This document shows, one piece after another, positions 5,179 to 20,955 of a stretch of DNA of 34,146 nucleotides. The stretch covers positions 1 through 34,146 of the forward strand of contig CANQJT010000006.1 in NCBI GenBank assembly GCA_947624325.1, written 5' to 3'. Made by a program: the position numbers and the translations under genes. Origin of the DNA: Candidatus Gastranaerophilales bacterium. Lineage in GTDB: Bacteria > Cyanobacteriota > Vampirovibrionia > Gastranaerophilales > Gastranaerophilaceae. Under the pieces are notes generated by a model, which did not search any database, had not been told where the DNA came from, and saw only the letters and a list, made by a program, of their open reading frames with translations. Position 1 is the first letter of the stretch. Every line of letters starts with the position of its first letter.

Positions 5179-5862
5179 TTACTTTGCTGTTAAAAGCGGT
5201 TCATTATCATCTTCAAAAGTAAATTCTATAAGGTCAGCATCATTTTGAGGAAATTCTACAATATTATTTATTGTTTCCTTAGTTTCCTTTGCAAAAGATT
5301 TATTTAAGTAATTATACCCCATATAAAAAGACCCTAAAATTATTGCAAACACCATAAAACCCAATACAATACCGGCCCGTTTATAAACATTGTCAAATGA
5401 ATCTTTTGTTTCTTCTTTCAGTTTATTTATAATATTTTTTGAAAAATTAATGTTTAGATTATCTTTATACATAGCGATTGACTGCCTTATATTATTCTTT
5501 AATCCGTAAGCAGTCGCAAGTTCAGCTCTTGCAGGTTTTGATTTTAATAGATATTTCCTGAATTTTATACTGTCATCATAACAAAGTTCATCATCTATAT
5601 AAGGAGAAATATTTTGGTAAAAAACCTCATATTCTCTTATATTAAACACTTTATTTGCCTCAATACGGTTAAATTCGTTAATCATTTTTTCATATTCAAA
5701 ATGAAGATTATCCATAATATTTTTCATTTCTAAATACTTTTGATAACAGTCAGAGCAAAACATAAAATGATTTTCCACAAATAATTTGTCTTTTTCTTCA
5801 AGTTTATTTTCTATGTACATTGACAGTAACGAAATTACTTTTTTACAAATCGGGTTATCCAC
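5179..5862 (-). CDS. Membrane anti-sigma factor with zinc-finger motif
   Basis: A 227-residue protein. The N-terminus carries the anti-sigma zinc motif His-x3-Cys-x2-Cys (NHFMFCSDC, about residues 31-39). A single membrane helix (IVLGFMVFAIILGSFYMGYN) lies near residues 168-187, and a short acidic tail follows outside. It should hold the ECF sigma factor at the membrane until a signal triggers release. It lies 15 bases downstream of the sigma gene on the same strand, which is the standard arrangement. The middle (residues 75-130) holds a second region resembling the start of an anti-sigma domain (YIDDELCYDDSIKFRKYLL). The identity of the signal cannot be read from the sequence. Confidence 0.85.
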   Translation of the reverse strand: MDNPICKKVISLLSMYIENKLEEKDKLFVENHFMFCSDCYQKYLEMKNIMDNLHFEYEKMINEFNRIEANKVFNIREYEVFYQNISPYIDDELCYDDSIKFRKYLLKSKPARAELATAYGLKNNIRQSIAMYKDNLNINFSKNIINKLKEETKDSFDNVYKRAGIVLGFMVFAIILGSFYMGYNYLNKSFAKETKETINNIVEFPQNDADLIEFTFEDDNEPLLTAK

Positions 5863-5877
5863 TATAAAACTCCTTTA

Positions 5878-6486
5878 TTAAGTCAGATAAGGTTTAAGAC
5901 ATTCCTGCAGTTTATTCCTTGCCCGGGAAATTCTTGATTTAACCGTGCCGACATTGGTATTTGTAATTTTAGCGATTTCTTCATAACTGAGTCCTTGAAG
6001 TTCTCTTAGGATAATTACAAGCCTGAAATGTTCGGGCAGTTTTGATATCATTTCTCTTATAACATCAGAAAGCTCTCTGCCTAATGTTTTTTCATCAGGC
6101 TTTAGTGTGTTATCGCATATATTTAAAATACTGTTGTCATTGTTTTCATCATTAAGCCAATAAGAGTCTATTGAAACAGAATCAGGAATTCGTTGTTTCT
6201 TACGCAATTCATCATAAAAAAGATTGGATATAATCTGCCCAAGCCAAGATTTGAATAATCTTGGATTTTTAAGACTTTTAATATTTTTTGAAACCCGAAA
6301 TAAAGCTTCTTGAGTTAAATCAGAAAGACTTTCTTTTTCCGCACCAAGATAGCAAAAAGATGCAAAAACATTTTTCTGCTCTCGTTTAATTAATTCTTCA
6401 AGCGCATCGTAATCATCTTCCTGGGCGCTGCAGATTAAATCGTACAAGTTCATATCTTTATATTTTCTTTTAGACATTCCTTTCAA
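5878..6486 (-). CDS. ECF-family RNA polymerase sigma factor
   Basis: An ECF sigma factor of about 200 residues. Region 2 spans roughly residues 25-100 (ALEELIKREQKNVFASFCYL, DLTQEALFRVSKNIKSL, FKSWLGQIISNLFYDELRKK). Region 4 spans roughly 140-200 (MISKLPEHFRLVIILRELQG, LSYEEIAKITNTNVGTVKSR). It directs RNA polymerase to an unknown regulon and is presumably held by the adjacent anti-sigma factor. The start is uncertain. TTG at 6486 has AAGG six bases upstream, while ATG at 6477 has AAAGGA directly against it; the alternatives differ by three residues. Autoregulation is common in the family, but I could not identify an ECF-type promoter with confidence upstream. Confidence 0.92.
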   Translation of the reverse strand: MKGMSKRKYKDMNLYDLICSAQEDDYDALEELIKREQKNVFASFCYLGAEKESLSDLTQEALFRVSKNIKSLKNPRLFKSWLGQIISNLFYDELRKKQRIPDSVSIDSYWLNDENNDNSILNICDNTLKPDEKTLGRELSDVIREMISKLPEHFRLVIILRELQGLSYEEIAKITNTNVGTVKSRISRARNKLQECLKPYLT

Positions 6487-6620
6487 AATATCCCTTGTAT
6501 TTAAACTGTTTTCACAATTAATAAATAATCAAAACCACCGATATAATCTATGACCTGTCAGGATAGTCATATAGGTATACATGTGAGTAATATGAAAAGA
6601 AGTAATTTTTTAAATTTTTT

Positions 6621-6629
6621 TGTTATAAT
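6621..6629 (+). promoter_or_regulatory. Extended -10 promoter of glycan locus 1
   Basis: TGTTATAAT (TATAAT at 6624-6629) lies about 30 bases before the ATG at 6657 in the divergent gap between the sigma gene and glycan locus 1. No convincing -35 is present, consistent with an extended -10 promoter. Confidence 0.5.
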
Positions 6630-6656
6630 TAATTGTAGTTATTAAATGGTGAAATT

Positions 6657-8162
6657 ATGAAAATTATTATTCAGGCAGGCGGAAAAGGTACAAGACTTGA
6701 AGGTTTAACAAGAAATAAACCTAAATGTCTGGTGAGTATTAATAATCTGCCGATGATTTTTCATACTTTCGAAAAATTTAAAAATTCTATGTTTACAATA
6801 ATATCCGATTATAAAACGGAGGTTCTTGAAAAATATCTTGCATGTTTTGCATCTGACTATAACTATAAAATTATTAAAGCCGAAAAAAAAGGAACTATAT
6901 CAGGTATAAAACAAGCTGTCAGAGATTTTTCATCTGATGAACCGTTTATGATATTGTGGTGTGACTTGATTTTATCAGATGAATTCCCCCCCCCACAAGA
7001 ATTTAAGGGAAATTATATAGGCATTTCAAAAGATTTTGAATGCAGATGGTCTTTTATAAACAATAAATTTATTAAGGAAACCTCAAAAGAAAACGGAGTA
7101 GCCGGTTTATTTATTTTTGAAAATAAAAAATGCCTTGATAATATTCCCGAGGAGGGTGCTTTTGTTGATTGGCTGCAAACTCAGAATATTGAATTTAAAA
7201 GGCTTAATTTATATGGTACAAAAGAAATAGGTACACTGCTTTCGTATTCCGATAATAATGAAAATAACAAAAAATGCAGACCGTTTAATTCTCTTGAATT
7301 TGACGGTGATATTGTTATCAAAAGAGGTATAACTGAACAAGGCAGAAAAATTGCTTCTGATGAAATAAACTGGTATAAGCATGTTAAAAATCTCAATTAT
7401 AAAAATATTCCCGAAATATATGAATATGAACCTTTAAAGATGAAAAAGGTCAACGGCAGAAATATTTGGGAATATGACTGTCTTATAACTTCACAAAAAA
7501 AAGAAATACTAAAACAAGTAATTAATTCACTAAAGGAACTGCATAATTTAGAGGGCAGAAAGCCGGTTAATATTCAGGATGTCGAGGATAATTATATTAA
7601 TAAAACTTTTGACAGATTAAAAAAAGTTGAAAAATTAATTCCTTTTGCTGATAAACAGTTTATAAAAATAAACGGACAGTATTATAAAAATGTTTTCTAC
7701 AATAAAGATGAATTAAAAGATGAAATTAAAAAATTATATCCCGAATATTTTTGTTTAATACATGGTGATTGTACCTTTTCAAATATAATGTTTGATACAT
7801 TTAATATGAAATGTATATTAATAGACCCCCGAGGCTATTTCGGCGAAACAAAACTCTATGGAGATGCTGATTATGATTGGGCAAAATTGTATTATTCGCT
7901 TAAAGGTGAGTATGATCAGTTTAACAGAAAGAAGTTTACTCTTGATATAAGAGAAAAAGAAGTAGAATTTGCCATAAAACCAAATAATTGGGCAGATATG
8001 GAGGAATACTTTTTTGAATGTCTGCCTGAAATTAATAAAAGAAAAATAAAACTTTTGCACGCAATAATATGGCTGTCCTTGACAACATATGCCTGGGAGG
8101 ATTATGATTCAATCTGCGGAGCTTTTTATAACGGTATTGTAAAATTAGGCGAGGTTCTATAA
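6657..8162 (+). CDS. Nucleotidyltransferase fused to APH/choline-kinase-like kinase, phase-ON
   Basis: A 501-residue two-domain enzyme. Residues 1-185 are a sugar-nucleotide-type nucleotidyltransferase (IIIQAGGKGTRLEGLTRNKP with the GxGxR signature and catalytic Lys, then MILWCDLIL as the metal-binding Asp segment). Residues 210-500 are an aminoglycoside/choline kinase-like domain with catalytic-loop LIHGDCTFSNIMF and metal-binding LIDPRGYFGE. It likely phosphorylates a small substrate and activates it as a nucleotide derivative for a surface glycan; the substrate is unknown. A C9 tract at 6986-6994 encodes part of EFPPPQEF (residues 109-116) and is in frame, so the gene is ON. One base gained or lost would truncate the protein soon after residue 112. 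It is followed directly by the HAD gene (stop 8162, next start 8163). Confidence 0.85.
   Translation: MKIIIQAGGKGTRLEGLTRNKPKCLVSINNLPMIFHTFEKFKNSMFTIISDYKTEVLEKYLACFASDYNYKIIKAEKKGTISGIKQAVRDFSSDEPFMILWCDLILSDEFPPPQEFKGNYIGISKDFECRWSFINNKFIKETSKENGVAGLFIFENKKCLDNIPEEGAFVDWLQTQNIEFKRLNLYGTKEIGTLLSYSDNNENNKKCRPFNSLEFDGDIVIKRGITEQGRKIASDEINWYKHVKNLNYKNIPEIYEYEPLKMKKVNGRNIWEYDCLITSQKKEILKQVINSLKELHNLEGRKPVNIQDVEDNYINKTFDRLKKVEKLIPFADKQFIKINGQYYKNVFYNKDELKDEIKKLYPEYFCLIHGDCTFSNIMFDTFNMKCILIDPRGYFGETKLYGDADYDWAKLYYSLKGEYDQFNRKKFTLDIREKEVEFAIKPNNWADMEEYFFECLPEINKRKIKLLHAIIWLSLTTYAWEDYDSICGAFYNGIVKLGEVL
6986..6994 (+). repeat. C9 homopolymer, in-frame (ON)
   Basis: Nine consecutive C in an AT-rich gene. 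The reading frame passes intact through the tract, so nine is the ON length. It is one of four equal tracts in the glycan genes of this window. Confidence 0.9.
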
Positions 8163-8528
8163 ATGGAATTATCAACTTTGCCTAAAACTTGGATATTAGA
8201 TATTGACGGTACTATTGTAAAACATAACGGTTATCTAATTGACGGAGAAGATACTCTATTAGAAGGAGTTAAGGAATTTTTCTCCGGTTTAAATCCTGAG
8301 GATAAAATTATACTTCTCACTGCCAGAGGTAAAGAATATTTGAAAAACTTACAAATTTTTCTTGAAAAAAATAAAATTCGATACGACTTTTTGTTAACAG
8401 ATATTCCAATCGGAGAAAGAATTTTAATTAACGATAAAAAACCAAGCGGATTACAGACTGCGTTTTGCATTAATAAAAACCGAGATGAAAAATTACATAT
8501 TGATTATGAAATTAAGGATACATTATAA
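8163..8528 (+). CDS. HAD-family phosphatase of glycan locus 1
   Basis: A 121-residue minimal HAD hydrolase. Motif I is WILDIDGTIV (nucleophile and acid/base Asp, residues 10-19), motif II is IILLTARG, and a conserved Lys/Asp pair occurs in ILINDKKPSG. There is no large cap domain, as in the small capsule-type and GmhB-like phosphatases. It probably dephosphorylates a sugar or sugar-like intermediate in the cytoplasm. It begins immediately after the nucleotidyltransferase-kinase stop and shares a TAATG junction with the next gene, so it is translationally coupled. The same domain occurs fused to a nucleotidyltransferase in the second glycan locus (17658-18713). Confidence 0.82.
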   Translation: MELSTLPKTWILDIDGTIVKHNGYLIDGEDTLLEGVKEFFSGLNPEDKIILLTARGKEYLKNLQIFLEKNKIRYDFLLTDIPIGERILINDKKPSGLQTAFCINKNRDEKLHIDYEIKDTL

Positions 8529-9706
8529 TGATTTTCTTTAAATATATTTCAAATACAGAAATACGTTCTTACACTTTTTTGGGGCTTAACATATATTTTA
8601 AACAAAAAAAATATCCTGAAAAAAAAATATTTTTTAATGGTCTTATTAAAATAATAAAAAGATTTAACAACAGGACAATCACAAGTGCTAAGTATATAAA
8701 GCTATTTAATAAGACAATTTATAAAAAATTCAATACTTGTGATATTGACGTAGCATATTTATTTAATATACCTATAAAAATTACAAATTTAAAGGATTTT
8801 TACAAAAAACAAATTAATAAAACCATCAGTAAGGAGTATGACGATATATATGTTTTTTCATACAACAGCGGAGAAATATATGTTTTTTTAACATATTTTA
8901 TAGACGCTTATTTAAAAATCAATAAAAGCAAAAATCCTATAATTATTACAAGATATAAGTATCACAACGATTTAATTGAGATGATTTATCCGAAAATTCC
9001 GCATGTATATTTGAAAAATGCTCCTCGGCTAAAGAACCACTCTTTTGTTATAGGGCATCAGAGATTTTTTCAAATTTATGGTAGTGATTTTGAGTATGGA
9101 GAAATTAAGGAAAATAGAGTCAGTGAAAATCCTATACCATATTTTAATTTATGTAAAAATCACTTAAATATTCCTGATGATATGCTTTCTGTAAATCCTA
9201 TAAAGATTACGGAAAAAATGGAAAACAGTATGACGGAAAAAATATCAAAAATAAATCTCAACATGGATAATTTTATATTTATTTCTCCGGAAGCAAAATC
9301 TTATAAAATGCTTCCGCAAAAATTTTGGGATGAAATAATAGGATATTATAAAAATAAAGGGATAGACATATTTTTAAATATTAATGACCATAAGTTTAAA
9401 AGATTTGATAAATATTGTAAATCTATTGATTTAACATTTCCTGAAGCTTTTGCGTTAGCAAAGAAAGCTAAAAAAATTATAACTTTAAGAAGCGGGTTAT
9501 CGGAAATTCTTATGCAAACAGGTGTTGAACATTATATTATAAATACTAACGAATTTGGATATAAAACATTAAGGGTTGATAAACATTTACCGCTTTTTAA
9601 TATAAACACAAATCATGAATACTTAATTCCCGAGACTCAAACACAAGAGGAAATGGATAGAGTCAAGGAAATAATTTTGAATGATAAAATAGAAATTGGG
9701 CAATAA
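8528..9706 (+). CDS. Putative GT-B-fold glycosyltransferase
   Basis: A 392-residue protein with no signal peptide and a basic N-terminus. The C-terminal half has the layout of heptosyltransferase/GT9-like enzymes. FIFISPEAKSYKMLPQKFWD (about residues 252-271) corresponds to the phosphate-binding segment after the Rossmann start, and FPEAFALAKKAKKIITLRSG followed by LSEILMQTGVEH corresponds to the donor-binding helix region. The N-terminal half (YVFSYNSGEIYVFLTYFI) resembles an acceptor-binding domain. It would transfer a sugar or activated group made by the two preceding enzymes. It overlaps the HAD gene by one base (TAATG) and is the last gene of the operon. Lysine and isoleucine content is high. 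The family assignment is tentative and the substrate unknown. Confidence 0.55.
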   Translation: MIFFKYISNTEIRSYTFLGLNIYFKQKKYPEKKIFFNGLIKIIKRFNNRTITSAKYIKLFNKTIYKKFNTCDIDVAYLFNIPIKITNLKDFYKKQINKTISKEYDDIYVFSYNSGEIYVFLTYFIDAYLKINKSKNPIIITRYKYHNDLIEMIYPKIPHVYLKNAPRLKNHSFVIGHQRFFQIYGSDFEYGEIKENRVSENPIPYFNLCKNHLNIPDDMLSVNPIKITEKMENSMTEKISKINLNMDNFIFISPEAKSYKMLPQKFWDEIIGYYKNKGIDIFLNINDHKFKRFDKYCKSIDLTFPEAFALAKKAKKIITLRSGLSEILMQTGVEHYIINTNEFGYKTLRVDKHLPLFNINTNHEYLIPETQTQEEMDRVKEIILNDKIEIGQ

Positions 9707-12213: not shown

Positions 12214-12408
12214 ATGTTTGGATTAATGACAATAAAGGAATTTTCAAAAGAAATAGGAAAAAGTGAAAGCACAATAAGAACATGGAAAAGACGAGGGGAA
12301 CTTCCCCCTTTTCTTTTCTTAAAGATAGGCGGTGATATTTTTATCAAAATAGAAAAGTTCAAAGAGCTTGTTCAAAATAATACATCAGGTATTTTAAAAG
12401 AGATATGA
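12214..12408 (+). CDS. Excisionase-like MerR/AlpA-type DNA-binding protein
   Basis: 64 residues. MTIKEFSKEIGKSESTIRTW followed by KRRGELPPFLFLKIGGDIFI is the winged-helix pattern of helix-turn-helix group 17 excisionases (helix-turn-helix, then RGELPP and a beta wing). It would bind att DNA and control the direction of integrase action, or act as an activator. The gene overlaps the integrase start by four bases (ATGA), so the two are coupled. The start could be the ATG at 12214 or the in-frame ATG at 12226; GAAGGG upstream is closer to the first. Confidence 0.75.
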   Translation: MFGLMTIKEFSKEIGKSESTIRTWKRRGELPPFLFLKIGGDIFIKIEKFKELVQNNTSGILKEI

Positions 12409-13403
12409 GTGTAAGTAAAAGAAAAAATAAATGGTATTGCAGATTTCAGATAAATGGTGAACGACATCATTATTTATGTGATGGAGCAATGAGCAAGCAA
12501 CAAGCCGAGCAAATCGAAGCATCATTAAAATTTAAGATAATGCAGCAGCAAAATGGTGTTCTTCCGAAAGAAGCTGAAAAATTAAAGTTAAGTACATTAT
12601 ATGAAGAATATACTAAGTATGCTCAATTAAATAAAAAAACTTGGAAAATAGATGTAAAAAGACTAGATATAATAAAACAATTTTGGAAAAATATTAAATA
12701 TGCTGAGGATATAAAGCCTAATCATATAGAAGAATTAAAAAAGGCTTTATTAGCAAGAAATTTAACAAAAACAACTGTAAATCGCTATTTAGAAATATTA
12801 TCAAAAATGTTTAATGTGGGTATTGATAATGATTGGTTAATAAAAAACCCTATTAAAAAGAAAACAAAATTTCCAATTAAAAATTACCAAATTAGATATT
12901 TAAGAGATGATGAAGAACAACAATTATATAAATATAGTTCACAAGTTTTAAGAGATATAATTTTTGTAGATTTGAATACAGGTTTACGGGAAGCAAATAT
13001 TCGATTGTTACAAGGTAAAAATATTAACTTAGAATTTAAAATATTTGAATTAACAGAAAATAAAAGTAATAAGCATTTAAAAATACCTATGAATACTAAA
13101 ATGTATAATTTCTTCAAAGATAAAGTATATGAACCGGATGAGTATATTTTTATTAATCCAAGAACTAATAAACCTTATACATATACAGGATTAAATGATG
13201 AATGGACTAGAACAAAAAAATTAGCAAAAATAGAAAACTTTAGATTTCACGATTTAAGGCATACTTTTGGTACAAGGTTAGCTAAGAAAGGTGTACCTGT
13301 AAATATTATAAAAGAGTTATTAGGACATTCTGATATAAGCACTACAATGAGATATTTACATTTTGCACAAGAGCAATTAGTGAATGCAGTAGAACAATTA
13401 TAA
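12405..13403 (+). CDS. Tyrosine recombinase / phage-type integrase
   Basis: A 332-residue integrase. Residues 1-55 are an arm-binding domain (SVSKRKNKWYCRFQINGERH), residues 60-150 a SAM-like core-binding domain, and the rest the catalytic domain. Catalytic residues are visible: Arg in LNTGLREANI, His-x2-Arg in FHDLRHTFGTRLAKKG, His in LLGHSDISTTMRYLHF, and the nucleophile Tyr in MRYLH. It should catalyse integration and excision at the 3' end of tRNA-Leu(CAG), whose sequence bounds the element 120 bases downstream. It looks intact, with no frameshift, so the element may still be able to move. Confidence 0.95.
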   Translation: MSVSKRKNKWYCRFQINGERHHYLCDGAMSKQQAEQIEASLKFKIMQQQNGVLPKEAEKLKLSTLYEEYTKYAQLNKKTWKIDVKRLDIIKQFWKNIKYAEDIKPNHIEELKKALLARNLTKTTVNRYLEILSKMFNVGIDNDWLIKNPIKKKTKFPIKNYQIRYLRDDEEQQLYKYSSQVLRDIIFVDLNTGLREANIRLLQGKNINLEFKIFELTENKSNKHLKIPMNTKMYNFFKDKVYEPDEYIFINPRTNKPYTYTGLNDEWTRTKKLAKIENFRFHDLRHTFGTRLAKKGVPVNIIKELLGHSDISTTMRYLHFAQEQLVNAVEQL

Positions 13404-13442
13404 TTTAATTCACAGACTTAGTATTTAATTCAAAATCAAAAA

Positions 13443-13461
13443 TGGACACAGAGTGGACACA
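13443..13461 (+). repeat. Possible integrase arm-type direct repeat
   Basis: TGGACACA occurs at 13443-13450 and 13454-13461, an 11-base spacing, between the integrase stop and the right attachment site. Its position fits arm-type integrase binding sites. This is inferred from position and repetition only. Confidence 0.35.
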
Positions 13462-13500
13462 AGAGAAAGTCAAAACCGGTGAAATTGGTATAAATAAAGA

Positions 13501-13536
13501 GAAAAAGAAACTGTCGAAGATGGGACTCTGCTTAGA
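13501..13536 (+). repeat. Junction attachment site between element 1 and the mini-element
   Basis: Bases 13501-13528 are identical over 28 bases to 13658-13685, the 3' end of tRNA-Leu and its trailer. Bases 13520-13536 are identical over 17 bases to the left end at 9933-9949. The site thus combines the right end of one element with the left end of the next, as expected for tandem insertions at one attachment site. Confidence 0.75.
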
Positions 13537-13685
13537 CCGTTGGCGAGTATGTGAAATACGAGCCTTACGGGATAAGTATGCGTAGCTGTACCCTATTGTT
13601 TGCGAATATTTTTGAGCAAACAATACGGTGAGAGTCCTCTCTTTAAAAAACCTTACAGAAAAAGAAACTGTCGAAGATGGGACTC
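13520..13685. mobile_element. 157-bp mini-element in tandem with element 1
   Basis: Its left end matches that of element 1 (ATGGGACTCTGCTTAGA, then a shared CGT one base later), and its right end carries the same 28-base tRNA-3'-end repeat. It has no gene. It can fold: GGACTCT near 13523 pairs with AGAGTCC near 13632, and inside this ATTGTTTGC pairs with GCAAACAAT. It is either an internally deleted relic of an earlier element or a non-autonomous element mobilised by the neighbouring integrase. Confidence 0.6.
13658..13685 (+). repeat. Attachment site within intact tRNA-Leu
   Basis: The 28-base copy that contains the 3' acceptor strand and T-arm edge of the functional tRNA-Leu (minus strand). 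The core ATGGGACTC is at 13677-13685. Both elements to the left restore this sequence, so the tRNA stays intact after integration. Confidence 0.7.
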
Positions 13686-13750
13686 GAACCCACAAGGCTT
13701 GCACCACATGAACCTGAATCATGCGCGTCTACCAATTTCGCCACTTCGAC
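13669..13750 (-). tRNA. tRNA-Leu (CAG)
   Basis: On the minus strand the acceptor GTCGAAG pairs with CTTCGAC, with discriminator A at 13669. The D arm is GGCGAAATTGGTAGACGC. The anticodon stem-loop CATGA-TTCAGGT-TCATG gives anticodon CAG. A type II variable arm is present and the T arm is TGGGTTCGAGTCCCA. CCA is not encoded, in contrast to tRNA-Glu in this window. Its 3' end is the integration target of the two elements; its 5' end is repeated twice upstream. Confidence 0.92.
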
Positions 13751-14000
13751 ATAGTTTCCAAGTATTCAATTGTCAGATTAACTCAACCGTCTGTGGCTCA
13801 TGGTTTTCTCTTCGTTCAAACCCCTCTCCTCGAACGATTATCAATCGTTCTCGTCGGCAGAGTGCCACTTCGACATAGTTTCCAAGTATTCAATTGTCAG
13901 ATTAACTCAACCGTCTGTGGCTCATGGTTTTCACTTCGTTCAAACCCCTCTCCTCGAAAGGTACACTGTACCTTCCTCGTCGGCAGAGTGCCACTTCGAC
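13740..14000 (-). repeat. Two tandem structured repeats sharing the tRNA-Leu 5' end
   Basis: Unit 1 is 13740-13863 and unit 2 is 13864-13989; each begins GCCACTTCGAC, and a third partial copy of that motif is at 13990-14000. Read on the minus strand, each unit starts with the first 11 bases of tRNA-Leu and then contains three hairpins: GGCA-ctc-TGCC, a variable hairpin, and GGTTT...AAACC. The units are nearly identical except in the variable hairpin: AACGAT/ATCGTT in unit 1 (13833-13849) and AAGGTAC/GTACCTT in unit 2 (13958-13974). Sequence changes while pairing is kept. No genuine gene covers the repeats. Confidence 0.75.
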
Positions 14001-16627: not shown

Positions 16628-17641
16628 TTATTTAAAAGTTTTTTGATACTTGATTATATTAGCTAATCCTTCTTCTAAAGATGTTTTTGCTTCATACAAA
16701 AATTCATTTTTTATTTTTGTACAATCACCTATACAGTGTTTAAAAACTTCCTGTTCAACACGTTTAGTATTAAGTTTATACTTTGTGTTAAAAAGCTCAT
16801 TGTACTTATCCCAAAACTGTAACGGATTGCCCTTATCAAAATCTAACGGCTTATTTAACAATTTATATATTGTTTTTGCAATTTCCATTGCAGAATATGC
16901 CTGAGATGTTGCCAAATTAAATATTTCAGCACAATATTTTTTCTCACTTATCATCATTAAATATAAGTAATTCATTAAATCTTCAACGTATATATAATCA
17001 CGTTTAACATCGGAAGTATTAAATATAACAGGCTTTTTACCCCCCCCCAAGGCACATTTTATCAAATAGCTTGTAAAAGGCGGATATTTTCTTTTAAAAT
17101 CCTGATGAGGTCCAAAAACGTTAAAAAACCTGCATATTATTATATCCATGTCGTAGTTTTGAGCATAGCATTTGCAGATCTGTTCACTACAGTATTTTGT
17201 TGCAGCATAAATTAAGTTAGGATAAACCACATCAGTTTCTTTATGTATTTCATCTATCGGATTATTTTCATATACAGCAGAAGTCGAAGCGAATATTATT
17301 TTTTTTACATTAGATTTTCTGCATGAATTAAGAACATTTACCGTACCTGTTGTATTTACGTCAAAAGCTTTTTGCGGATTTGCTTCACATTCCGGAAGCG
17401 CTGAAATTCCTGCCAGATGGAATACAACATCTATGTCTTTCAGATATTTTTCAAAAGAATTTTCTCTTACATCAGCAAGTATAAAATTATTTTTTAATAT
17501 TAAATTGTCTTCAAAGTTATCCCGATATCCATATTCCAAATTGTCTAAAATTTTTACATTTACTCCTTTGGTCAATAAAAACTTAGCTAATTCAGAACCT
17601 ATAAAACCGGCACCTCCTGTTATAAGTACATTTAAAGTCAT
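16628..17641 (-). CDS. NAD-dependent sugar epimerase/dehydratase, phase-ON
   Basis: A 337-residue extended SDR enzyme. The NAD-binding motif VLITGGAGFIGSELAKFL is at residues 5-22 and an Asp in LDNLEY binds the cofactor ribose. DVVFHLAGIS, the catalytic Ser segment IFASTSAVYENN and Tyr-x3-Lys in LIYAATKYCSEQ follow, then ICRFFNVFGPHQ. It probably converts a nucleotide sugar (UDP-glucose 4-epimerase or related) for the surface glycan of this locus. A G9 tract (17040-17048 on the plus strand as C9) encodes part of CALGGGKK near residue 199 and is in frame. It follows the nucleotidyltransferase-HAD gene by 16 bases with a ribosome-binding site. The exact substrate is not deducible. Confidence 0.88.
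   Translation of the reverse strand: MTLNVLITGGAGFIGSELAKFLLTKGVNVKILDNLEYGYRDNFEDNLILKNNFILADVRENSFEKYLKDIDVVFHLAGISALPECEANPQKAFDVNTTGTVNVLNSCRKSNVKKIIFASTSAVYENNPIDEIHKETDVVYPNLIYAATKYCSEQICKCYAQNYDMDIIICRFFNVFGPHQDFKRKYPPFTSYLIKCALGGGKKPVIFNTSDVKRDYIYVEDLMNYLYLMMISEKKYCAEIFNLATSQAYSAMEIAKTIYKLLNKPLDFDKGNPLQFWDKYNELFNTKYKLNTKRVEQEVFKHCIGDCTKIKNEFLYEAKTSLEEGLANIIKYQKTFK
17040..17048 (-). repeat. G9 homopolymer, in-frame (ON)
   Basis: Nine C on the plus strand, read as TTG GGG GGG GGT in the epimerase gene. The frame is intact at nine. It is one of four equal tracts. Confidence 0.9.
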
Positions 17642-17657
17642 AATTTCACTCCTATAA

Positions 17658-18713
17658 TTACAAATATTCTTTAATTAAATTATTTCTGGGCAACGTTATA
17701 GCAATTGCGGAAGGATATGGGTTAGTAGGGGCAAAATCATTAATAACTACTCTTGCAGAGTGATTTAACCCCATAAGTATTGAATAGGGTTTTATTCCGT
17801 TTGTTAAGAGAATTTTTTCCAAATCCTTCCTGTATTCTTCACTTCTTGATGTTGTTATAATTATTTGTCCTCCCTTTTCTTGAAGTTTTCGTATCTGTTC
17901 TATATTTTCTGGTATAATTTCTTCATTATTTGACCAATTCTTACTGCCGTATTTACCGCAATTTTTCAACAATATGCCATCTACATCTACAAAATATGTG
18001 CGATAATTCTTTTGAACTTCATTCCATTCAATAAGTGTTCCCCAATCTTCATAACCTTCTGCGTATATTGCCGTAAAAATATACTTTTTTGTACTCAAAA
18101 GATACGAAATAACATGAGAAATATATATTTCACCTGAAATGTTTTTATCTAAAAGTTCTTTATAACCTTTTTTAAATATTTCAACGTTATTAAAAGAATA
18201 CAGCCCAAGACAAATAAAATTGGAAACAACTCTTTTTTCTATAATATCTTCAATAATATTTTGTTCATTTACTATTATAAAACTTTTACCCGGAATATTG
18301 CTTACTTCGGTATGTTTATGCAAATCATAGCAAGCTATGGAATTTTCTAAGTTTGCCGGTAAATTAACATTAACATAATTATCAGCATCCTTAACGGCAA
18401 AAGCTCCTTCAACTTTCATTTTTGTCAAAGTTAAATATACTGTTTCCGAAGCACTTGATGTAAAATCGTCAAGCAGACATATTTCAATTTTTTTATTGTT
18501 TTTAAAGACTTGGCTTAGAATAAGTCCTGCTTCATATTCTTTATTATGCGGTTCAACTATTGTTATGATAATTCTGTCAAAAACATCCGTGTTTATGCCT
18601 TTTATGGCTTTTTCTATCATAAGTTCCCCGTCAGGATGGGTTAACATCCATTTAGGCTTCATATTCGGAAAACGGTTTGATTTGCCTGCACAAGGTACAA
18701 TTAATGTATTCAT
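17658..18713 (-). CDS. Nucleotidyltransferase fused to HAD phosphatase
   Basis: 351 residues from the ATG at 18713. Residues 1-230 are a nucleotidyltransferase (TLIVPCAGKSNRFPNMKPKW with the binding loop and Lys, then AFAVKDADNYVNV as the metal-binding Asp segment). Residues 235-345 are a small HAD domain (TYFVDVDGILLKNCGKYG as motif I, IIITTSRSEEYRKDLE as motif II, ARVVINDFAP as the Asp motif). In HAD motif I the usual DxDGT reads DVDGI. It likely activates a small phosphorylated compound and removes a phosphate elsewhere in the same pathway. The ATG shares one base with the TAA of the kinase gene (TAATG); an earlier ATG at 18722 is possible. Confidence 0.8.
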   Translation of the reverse strand: MNTLIVPCAGKSNRFPNMKPKWMLTHPDGELMIEKAIKGINTDVFDRIIITIVEPHNKEYEAGLILSQVFKNNKKIEICLLDDFTSSASETVYLTLTKMKVEGAFAVKDADNYVNVNLPANLENSIACYDLHKHTEVSNIPGKSFIIVNEQNIIEDIIEKRVVSNFICLGLYSFNNVEIFKKGYKELLDKNISGEIYISHVISYLLSTKKYIFTAIYAEGYEDWGTLIEWNEVQKNYRTYFVDVDGILLKNCGKYGSKNWSNNEEIIPENIEQIRKLQEKGGQIIITTSRSEEYRKDLEKILLTNGIKPYSILMGLNHSARVVINDFAPTNPYPSAIAITLPRNNLIKEYL

Positions 18714-19634
18714 TATAACCATCCGTCCTTTCTTTTTAGTTTTTTTGTTAAAATTTCTACTGCTTTGTTTAAATACAATAATGTACTTGTATCTTTTGTA
18801 TAAGGATAAATTCTTATAACATTTAACAAAAGCAGATGATATATTGTCTTTAATTTTTCTTTTCCGTCTTTAATTTTTAAAACTTCTTCAATTAAAGCCT
18901 CCCTGGCTACTTCTAAACGCATAGCTCTGACGGGCAAAATATCTTTATCTCTAAATGCCCATTTAAGTTCTAAATCTTGCAGCAGTTTTGCAATATCTAT
19001 CTGCCAGGAATTATAAAAAGAATCAAGAAAATCAATTAAATATAGTTTTTTATCTTTTGTGATTAAAATATTTTCTAAAGTTAAATCTCCATGGCAAGCA
19101 GATTTATATACATTTGTCCAATCAAAACTCTCAAGTATATTAAATGCTTCCGAAAGTTGATTTTCATTATTTAATTTTTCTTTTAAGCCGGCTATTTTTT
19201 TATTAAATATCTTAGCTGATTTTACATCTCGCTTTGAATTTTCCCAATATAAAGACTTAAATAAACAACATATTAAATCTGCAATTTCAACTATACTTAT
19301 GTCATTTGTATATTCGGCAAGGGTTTTCCCCTGAATAAATTCCATATTAAAATAAAATATGCCGTTATCATATCCGCTTTTTATAATTTTTGGGGTTAAA
19401 ACATTATATCCGGTGTTTTGTGTATGTTTGTTTGAAAGAAAGAGTGTATGTGAGGGGGGGGGAATAACTATTTTGTTTTTTGAATTGTTTTCTTAATCGC
19501 AAATTATACTCAAGAGAGCCGGAAGTTTTTGAAACAAATATATGTCCATCATCATTTATCAGTTCAAGTTTGCAGCCAGAATGTCCGTTTAGTTTATATT
19601 TTATTTTATTTTGTTCTCTTGTTTGCACTTCCAT
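18713..19634 (-). CDS. APH/choline-kinase-like kinase, phase-OFF at a C9 tract
   Basis: One gene split into two frames at a C9 tract. From the ATG at 19634 the first frame gives KYKLNGHSGCKLELINDDGH and GSLEYNLRLRKQFKKQNSYS, then runs out of frame to a stop at 19404. The frame after the tract continues SHTLFLSNKHTQNTGYNVLT, IFYFNMEFIQGKTLAEY, catalytic loop SACHGDLTLENILI and metal-binding LYLIDFLDSF. With eight (or eleven) C the two join into a 306-residue kinase like the C-terminal half of the glycan locus 1 fusion. As sequenced it is OFF. Its end overlaps the nucleotidyltransferase-HAD start, so switching may also change that gene's translation. Substrate unknown. Confidence 0.85.
19454..19462 (-). 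repeat. C9 homopolymer, out of frame (OFF)
   Basis: Nine G on the plus strand. In the kinase gene TAT T+C9 is followed by TCA CAT ACA CTC. The codon phase is restored only when the C count is 8 or 11. Confidence 0.9.
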
Positions 19635-19844: not shown

Positions 19845-20850
19845 TTAATTAAAGTTATATTTTTTTACTCGTTCTTTTAAAAGCGGCAAATATTTTTCTA
19901 TTGCGTAATCATTATCAACGGAAAGATAGTTTGGATAAAAAGGTTTGTTAAAACGTGGTATAGCGCCATCTGCCTTACCTTTTTTTAATCTCAACATAAA
20001 TTCTTCATAAGATTTTGTCCAATAGTGATTTATTCTAATCTCATCTATACAAACCGGGGTATTAAAAGGACCTCTTGTTAGAGGAAGTCCTTTTGAATTA
20101 ACAGCCGTTGCTCCGAATGCCGCAGCAACACTGTGTGGATTTTCAAAGACCACAACAATTAAAGGATTAACTATCGACTTAATGTGCTTATTATCACTGA
20201 CATTATAATCACACTTTTTGTAAATTTCGGTTACAAGGCCGTTTTGTTTATTATAATAACCGCCATAGCCGAACATTAACCAATTAATTCCTATTACATC
20301 AGGCTTTTTGTTTATTTTCTTTTCAAGATTATTTAAAAATTCTGTTATAGTATTATATTTAACAGGTACAATAAATTCATCACAATCAATAATAGCTATA
20401 TATTCACAGTCGAACCTATGCTTTTTAATGCAATTTTTATAAGAAGCAATCTGTTTTTTTCTGCCGGGGAAAAACGTATATTCTACCAGTCCGGATTTAA
20501 TATAAGGATTTAAAATTTCTTTTAAATTATCATTGCTTTCGTTATCGTAAATATAAAATTTTTCAACTCCGACAAGTTTATGAAATTCAATCCATTCAAC
20601 TATATAAGGTGCTTCGTTCTTTGCAATTGCACAAATCGCTAACTTGTATGGGGGGGGGAATTAATTTTATTTCTTTTAAATAATTAATGCAGGCATAAAA
20701 AACCATTGCATAAATTTGTTTAACAAATGTATAAGGTAAATATATAAAATTAATCATAATAACTTTATATAAACGTTTAGCTATTTTAAAAGGTTTTTTA
20801 TACGATTCTTCCGTGAATGTAAATTTTATGCCTAAAATTTTTATTCTCAT
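19845..20850 (-). CDS. GT92-like glycosyltransferase, phase-OFF at a C9 tract
   Basis: From the ATG at 20850 the first frame reads MRIKILGIKFTFTEESYKKP to IKLIPPP, then meets C9 and stops at 20596. The frame after the tract reads YKLAICAIAKNEAPYIVEWI, FHKLVGVEKFYIYDNESNDN, the DxD-type motif AIIDCDEFIVP, VIGINWLMFGYGG, and continues to the stop at 19845. This is a family 92/GT2-like glycosyltransferase (GT-A fold, Asp-Cys-Asp metal site). Eight or eleven C would join the frames into about 334 residues. It would add a sugar to the surface glycan. As sequenced it is OFF. The start at MRIK is favoured over upstream codons because the promoter lies between them. Confidence 0.85.
20650..20658 (-). 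repeat. C9 homopolymer, out of frame (OFF)
   Basis: Nine G on the plus strand. In the glycosyltransferase gene ATT+C9 is followed by ATACAAGTTAGCG; the downstream frame needs A to be the third base of a codon, so 8 or 11 C restores it. Confidence 0.9.
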
Positions 20851-20856
20851 TTCACA

Positions 20857-20885
20857 AGTGTACCACGTGAGCATAAAAAACACAA
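20857..20885 (-). promoter_or_regulatory. Promoter of glycan locus 2, apparently leaderless
   Basis: TTGTGT (20885-20880), a 17-base spacer and TACACT (20862-20857) with an extended -10 TGG. The predicted transcription start falls on the A of the ATG at 20850, and no ribosome-binding site is present. Confidence 0.55.
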
Positions 20886-20934
20886 ATTTAATATGGTTTG
20901 GACTTTCAAAATAAAGGACAATACAAAAGAATAA
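20884..20934 (+). pseudogene. 3' fragment of a paralogue of the 164-residue protein
   Basis: The frame reads KFNMVWTFKIKDNTKE then a stop. It matches the end of the protein at 14607-15101 (RFNMVCTFKMKDDTQK, stop) in both protein and DNA. The rest of the gene is gone: it abuts the glycosyltransferase promoter, and its DNA now supplies the -35 region. It indicates that the glycan cassette was joined here through loss of an earlier gene copy. Confidence 0.7.
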
Positions 20935-20955
20935 CAGTCTTAGCACACATAATCC

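Follow-up and report, generated by a model that had tools for sequence, protein, structure and literature searches.

A C9-split kinase gene of a Gastranaerophilales bacterium looks like one of dozens of on/off switches for surface chemistry in its genome

Why is a kinase gene of a gut bacterium interrupted at a run of nine cytosines when the frames on both sides of the run look intact? Gastranaerophilales are gut relatives of cyanobacteria. Most known cases of phase variation through slippery tracts come from cultured pathogens and bacteria related to them, and slipped-strand mispairing is established in Campylobacter, Neisseria, and Haemophilus. Here, we analyzed a stretch of 34,146 nucleotides (the window) from a Candidatus Gastranaerophilales genome of 1.98 Mb in 20 contigs, placed in this order by its relatives. 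The features concerned are as follows.

18713-19634, minus strand: APH-fold kinase gene, split by a C9 tract and OFF as sequenced; 306 amino acids at 8 C
19454-19462, minus strand: the C9 tract, proposed to act as the switch, with 8 or 11 C as the ON lengths and 7, 9, or 10 C as the OFF lengths
18713-19345, minus strand: internal open reading frame (ORF) from ATG 19345, 210 amino acids, without the conserved N-terminal segment that includes K36
17658-18713, minus strand: nucleotidyltransferase-HAD gene, overlapping the kinase stop (TAATG)
16628-17641, minus strand: NAD-dependent epimerase/dehydratase with an in-frame G9 at 17040-17048, ON as sequenced
19845-20946, minus strand: GT92 glycosyltransferase gene that lies upstream of the kinase, split by C9 at 20650-20658 and OFF; 366 amino acids with 8 C
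6657-9706, plus strand: second cassette that combines the same activities in a different order of domains

The kinase frame was read from ATG 19634 at each tract length. With 8 C the product has 306 amino acids and with 11 C it has 307; the sequence-only reading had given 306 residues for both, which is correct for eight and one residue short for eleven. At the other lengths the product is truncated, to 78 amino acids with 7 C, 76 with 9 C, and 79 with 10 C. The tract lies inside the kinase frame, where a one-unit change in length toggles between the full-length and a truncated product. No second frame break was found between ATG 19634 and the kinase stop at 18713, in agreement with the earlier claim that no other mutation splits the gene. 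The claim that the break sits at C9 itself was supported. A tract of 8 C does open the frame. However, the frame from ATG 19634 ends at a stop 47 nt past C9 and the following frame opens 30 nt upstream of it, which leaves an 86-nt stretch that must contain the frame change and that also holds an A6 run. Since A6 and C9 share this stretch, homology alone cannot assign the break to C9. C9 is the outstanding slippage site there.

C/G runs of nine in the window are beyond chance. Four runs of at least nine were observed in 34 kb, versus about 0.002 predicted from base composition, and C7 was matched 12 times (overlapping matches from the four 9-base runs) versus 0.46 expected in dinucleotide shuffles. 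The C/G run lengths of the window go straight from 5-6 to 9, with none in between.

One scan of species genomes found relatives of the kinase at 55 loci or contigs, in Gastranaerophilales, Alphaproteobacteria, Firmicutes, and others. Except for a few distant or contig-end-cut sequences, the match of these homologues starts no later than query residue 18. The expectation that full-length homologues would align across the tract was borne out: aligned relatives span the C9 site and keep the N-terminal segment. In 46 aligned sequences, G17, S19, G20, K36, R46, and Q50 are conserved upstream of the tract and G182, D183, N188, and D201 downstream. None of the 46 begins at the internal ATG (19345), which the sequence-only reading had raised as an alternative start, and this ATG was ruled out as the true gene start because homologues retain the N-terminal segment. 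At L060 (Butyrivibrio sp. INlla16, 5938-6861), the frame that leads into the kinase core contains an in-frame stop, and the true kinase start there is probably further downstream.

The read-through kinase has the profile score, the catalytic HGD...N and D motifs, and the fold of the APH superfamily (PF01636). In Pfam it scored 31 bits against the APH phosphotransferase family, above the cutoff of 23.2, and 27.1 bits against the choline kinase family, below the 29-bit cutoff; its scores against the NCBIfam APH models were far under their cutoffs. A profile of the 46 sequences gave pneumococcal LicA as the best solved relative. AlphaFold modeled the read-through product as one continuous kinase domain (pLDDT 92.6), poorly ordered only at both ends and around residues 61-78, adjoining the tract. 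This region is the loop joining helix 44-56 to strand 83-89, and in the model the tract is located where the kinase would be expected to tolerate added residues. The break at the tract deletes the HGD...N and D motifs. Fold neighbors of the model include methylthioribose kinase, LicA, APH enzymes, and N-acetylhexosamine 1-kinase. Attempts to assign a substrate from folds reached the superfamily level only, and those from neighboring genes found only glycosyltransferases and epimerases; neither gave an assignment.

In the protein encoded by the gene after the kinase, a nucleotidyltransferase of the sugar-phosphate type is fused to a HAD domain; it is closest to 4evw, and LicC was not among its profile matches. 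The overlap of the kinase 3' end with this gene, proposed from the TAATG, is real. ATG 18713, not 18722, is the probable start of this gene, given that relatives open with MNTL. In most homologue loci a nucleotidyltransferase gene directly follows the kinase, often with a 4-nt ATGA overlap, and the pair is conserved across phyla; the TAATG of the window is a variant of this arrangement. Lowered coupled translation of the partner in the OFF state is plausible. In a Selenomonadaceae relative (L057), a C9 splits the glycerophosphodiesterase-like gene that immediately precedes the kinase (5552-5996), and about 870 bases interrupt the nucleotidyltransferase match (6816-8400).

Within Gastranaerophilales, the kinase gene was found in five species. 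Two carry intact, tract-free orthologues (L037 and L038), the latter in a tract-poor genome (G011) with a single C/G tract of at least 9. The other three have tracts at three sites: in the window, a C9 near residue 58 with the frame broken, a C10 near residue 121 in G008 (L066), also with the frame broken and open at 8 or 11 C, and a G9 near the C terminus in G062 (L041), in frame. An Acidaminococcales relative (L054) carries a kinase with an in-frame G11 near residue 29. The differing positions in orthologues point to independent origins of the tracts. In these tract-rich genomes, a given 0.9-kb gene has a chance of about 2 to 4% of containing a tract, and kinases across all 55 loci showed 3 tracts versus about 1 expected from the surroundings. 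Thus, the kinase does not stand out and is one of many targets.

These comparisons also bear on programmed slippage, in which the polymerase or the ribosome would slip at the C run and yield some full-length kinase from C9. Slippage is possible at long homopolymers, and both frames are open for some distance around this tract. However, neither position nor length of the tract is conserved and several relatives are tract-free; no stimulatory structure was found, the 126 nt around the tract folding no better than shuffles (z = 0.86). We therefore consider programmed slippage extremely unlikely. A phase-variable gene, in which tract length itself changes, is strengthened by tracts that sit elsewhere in orthologues and by the pattern across the genome.

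The genome contains 58 C/G tracts of at least 9, of which 33 are exactly 9. For a survey of tract genes, the stretches around 54 tracts (of at least 8) were read. A restorable break was defined as a tract interrupting an ORF, where a change of one base would make that ORF markedly longer. By this definition 12 tracts were restorable breaks; 23 lay in ORFs open as sequenced, 7 were ambiguous, and 12 fell outside long ORFs. The restorable class thus made up 12 of 54 tracts versus 1.6 to 1.8% of random positions (P about 2e-10). The identified tract genes, chiefly surface-glycan enzymes, comprised glycosyltransferases, acyltransferases, epimerases and dehydratases, an FkbM methyltransferase, a polysaccharide pyruvyl transferase, a UbiA-type transferase, and a pilin-like protein. 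Several large membrane proteins among the tract genes had no family match.

The survey weighs on two simpler accounts. The gene could be an ordinary pseudogene, killed by a one-off frameshift and now decaying; it is broken in the sole genome seen, and a homopolymer frameshift is a common first hit. However, 306 codons have no second lesion and all catalytic residues are kept, restorable tract breaks number 12 in this genome, and tracts occur in orthologues as well, both ON and OFF, so we regard this account as very unlikely. Alternatively, the C-run length might be an assembly or sequencing error and the kinase gene intact, given that homopolymers are error-prone and that the length of the kinase tract is known from one genome. 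Such an error is very unlikely to be the answer: the 54 tracts include 23 in frame and 12 out of frame, the tracts are real whatever their exact length, and a true 8 C would still leave a candidate switch, in the ON state.

Tract richness varies strongly in the lineage. Species of the same family (G000 to G097) form tract-rich and tract-poor groups, with 0 to 119 C/G tracts of at least 9, a range also counted for species of one genus. MutS1 and MutL were found in the host genome, and their presence would tend to hold slippage rates down, which is a point against switching. Loss of mismatch repair was rejected as the cause of tract richness, since MutS1 and MutL occur in nearly all relatives, tract rich and tract poor; no link was seen from G000 to G097 between tract richness and the presence of MutS or MutL.

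As sequenced, the window combines both states, with the kinase and the GT92 glycosyltransferase OFF and the epimerase and the second nucleotidyltransferase-kinase cassette ON. This second cassette consists of a nucleotidyltransferase-APH fusion with an in-frame C9 (6986-6994), a separate HAD gene, and a glycosyltransferase-like gene. The two cassettes have related HAD parts (E 6e-9). Common ancestry of the two kinases was considered and not retained, the match being confined to the HGD motif region (E 0.008). Elsewhere in the window (12405-13958), an integrase gene adjoins a tRNA-Leu gene (13668-13751), with a 95-nt direct repeat (13740-13834 and 13864-13958, 99% identical); this looks like the boundary of an integrated element.

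Taken together, the locus is very probably a translational contingency (phase-variable) gene driven by slipped-strand mispairing at the C tract. We infer that mispairing at replication would alter the length of the tract in some daughter cells, reversibly. Cells with 8 or 11 C would make the full APH-fold kinase and be ON; the sequenced 9 C would truncate it shortly past residue 57, leaving the glycine-rich strand and Lys36 as the sole catalytic parts, and be OFF. In the ON state, a small alcohol or sugar may be phosphorylated by the kinase and then activated or processed by the adjoining nucleotidyltransferase-HAD protein, after which a transferase may attach it to a surface polysaccharide. 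With the kinase OFF, this decoration would be lost, and a clone would become mixed for it.

This type of switch is known and apparently undescribed in Gastranaerophilales; no report of phase variation in this order was found in the literature searched, outside which many subscription papers lie. More broadly, we consider it somewhat probable that Gastranaerophilales run a poly-C/G phasome of Campylobacter scale despite their mismatch-repair genes, with 0 to more than 100 tracts within a genus, and that this kinase independently gained tracts at four sites, across at least two phyla, with the result that switching affects donor synthesis in addition to transferases. Large-scale slippery-tract phase variation would then operate in an uncultured gut lineage. 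If so, gut populations of a single strain would be mixed for surface glycans, with a bearing on recognition by phages and host antibodies. In addition, tracts recurring at different sites of one kinase would offer a natural experiment on the origin of contingency loci.

The nearest known counterpart is licA. In Haemophilus influenzae, the licA choline kinase is phase variable by CAAT repeats. The likeness lies in a kinase of the same superfamily that is switched, here putatively, by an intragenic repeat and has a nucleotidyltransferase partner for surface decoration. In Campylobacter upsaliensis, phase variation of licA is probably mediated by a poly-G tract (PMC539331), so there the repeat is also a homopolymer. 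However, the kinase of the window misses the choline-kinase cutoff, and its partner, the sugar-phosphate-type nucleotidyltransferase-HAD fusion, does not match LicC; for these two reasons the kinase is not classed as LicA. Neither licB nor licD was seen among the recurrent neighbors of the kinase loci. Within the APH superfamily, the kinase shares score, motifs, and fold and differs in its setting, in glycan gene clusters next to a nucleotidyltransferase; it is no known resistance enzyme.

At the genome scale, the closest comparison is the Campylobacter phasome, in which PhasomeIt found many G/C homopolymers of about 7 to 11 nt, mostly translational, in surface-modification genes (PMC6321876). 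The Gastranaerophilales genome likewise has many C/G homopolymers in surface-modification genes. In contrast, it belongs to another phylum, it carries MutS1 and MutL, and the number of tracts of at least 9 ranges from 0 to 119 among species of a single genus.
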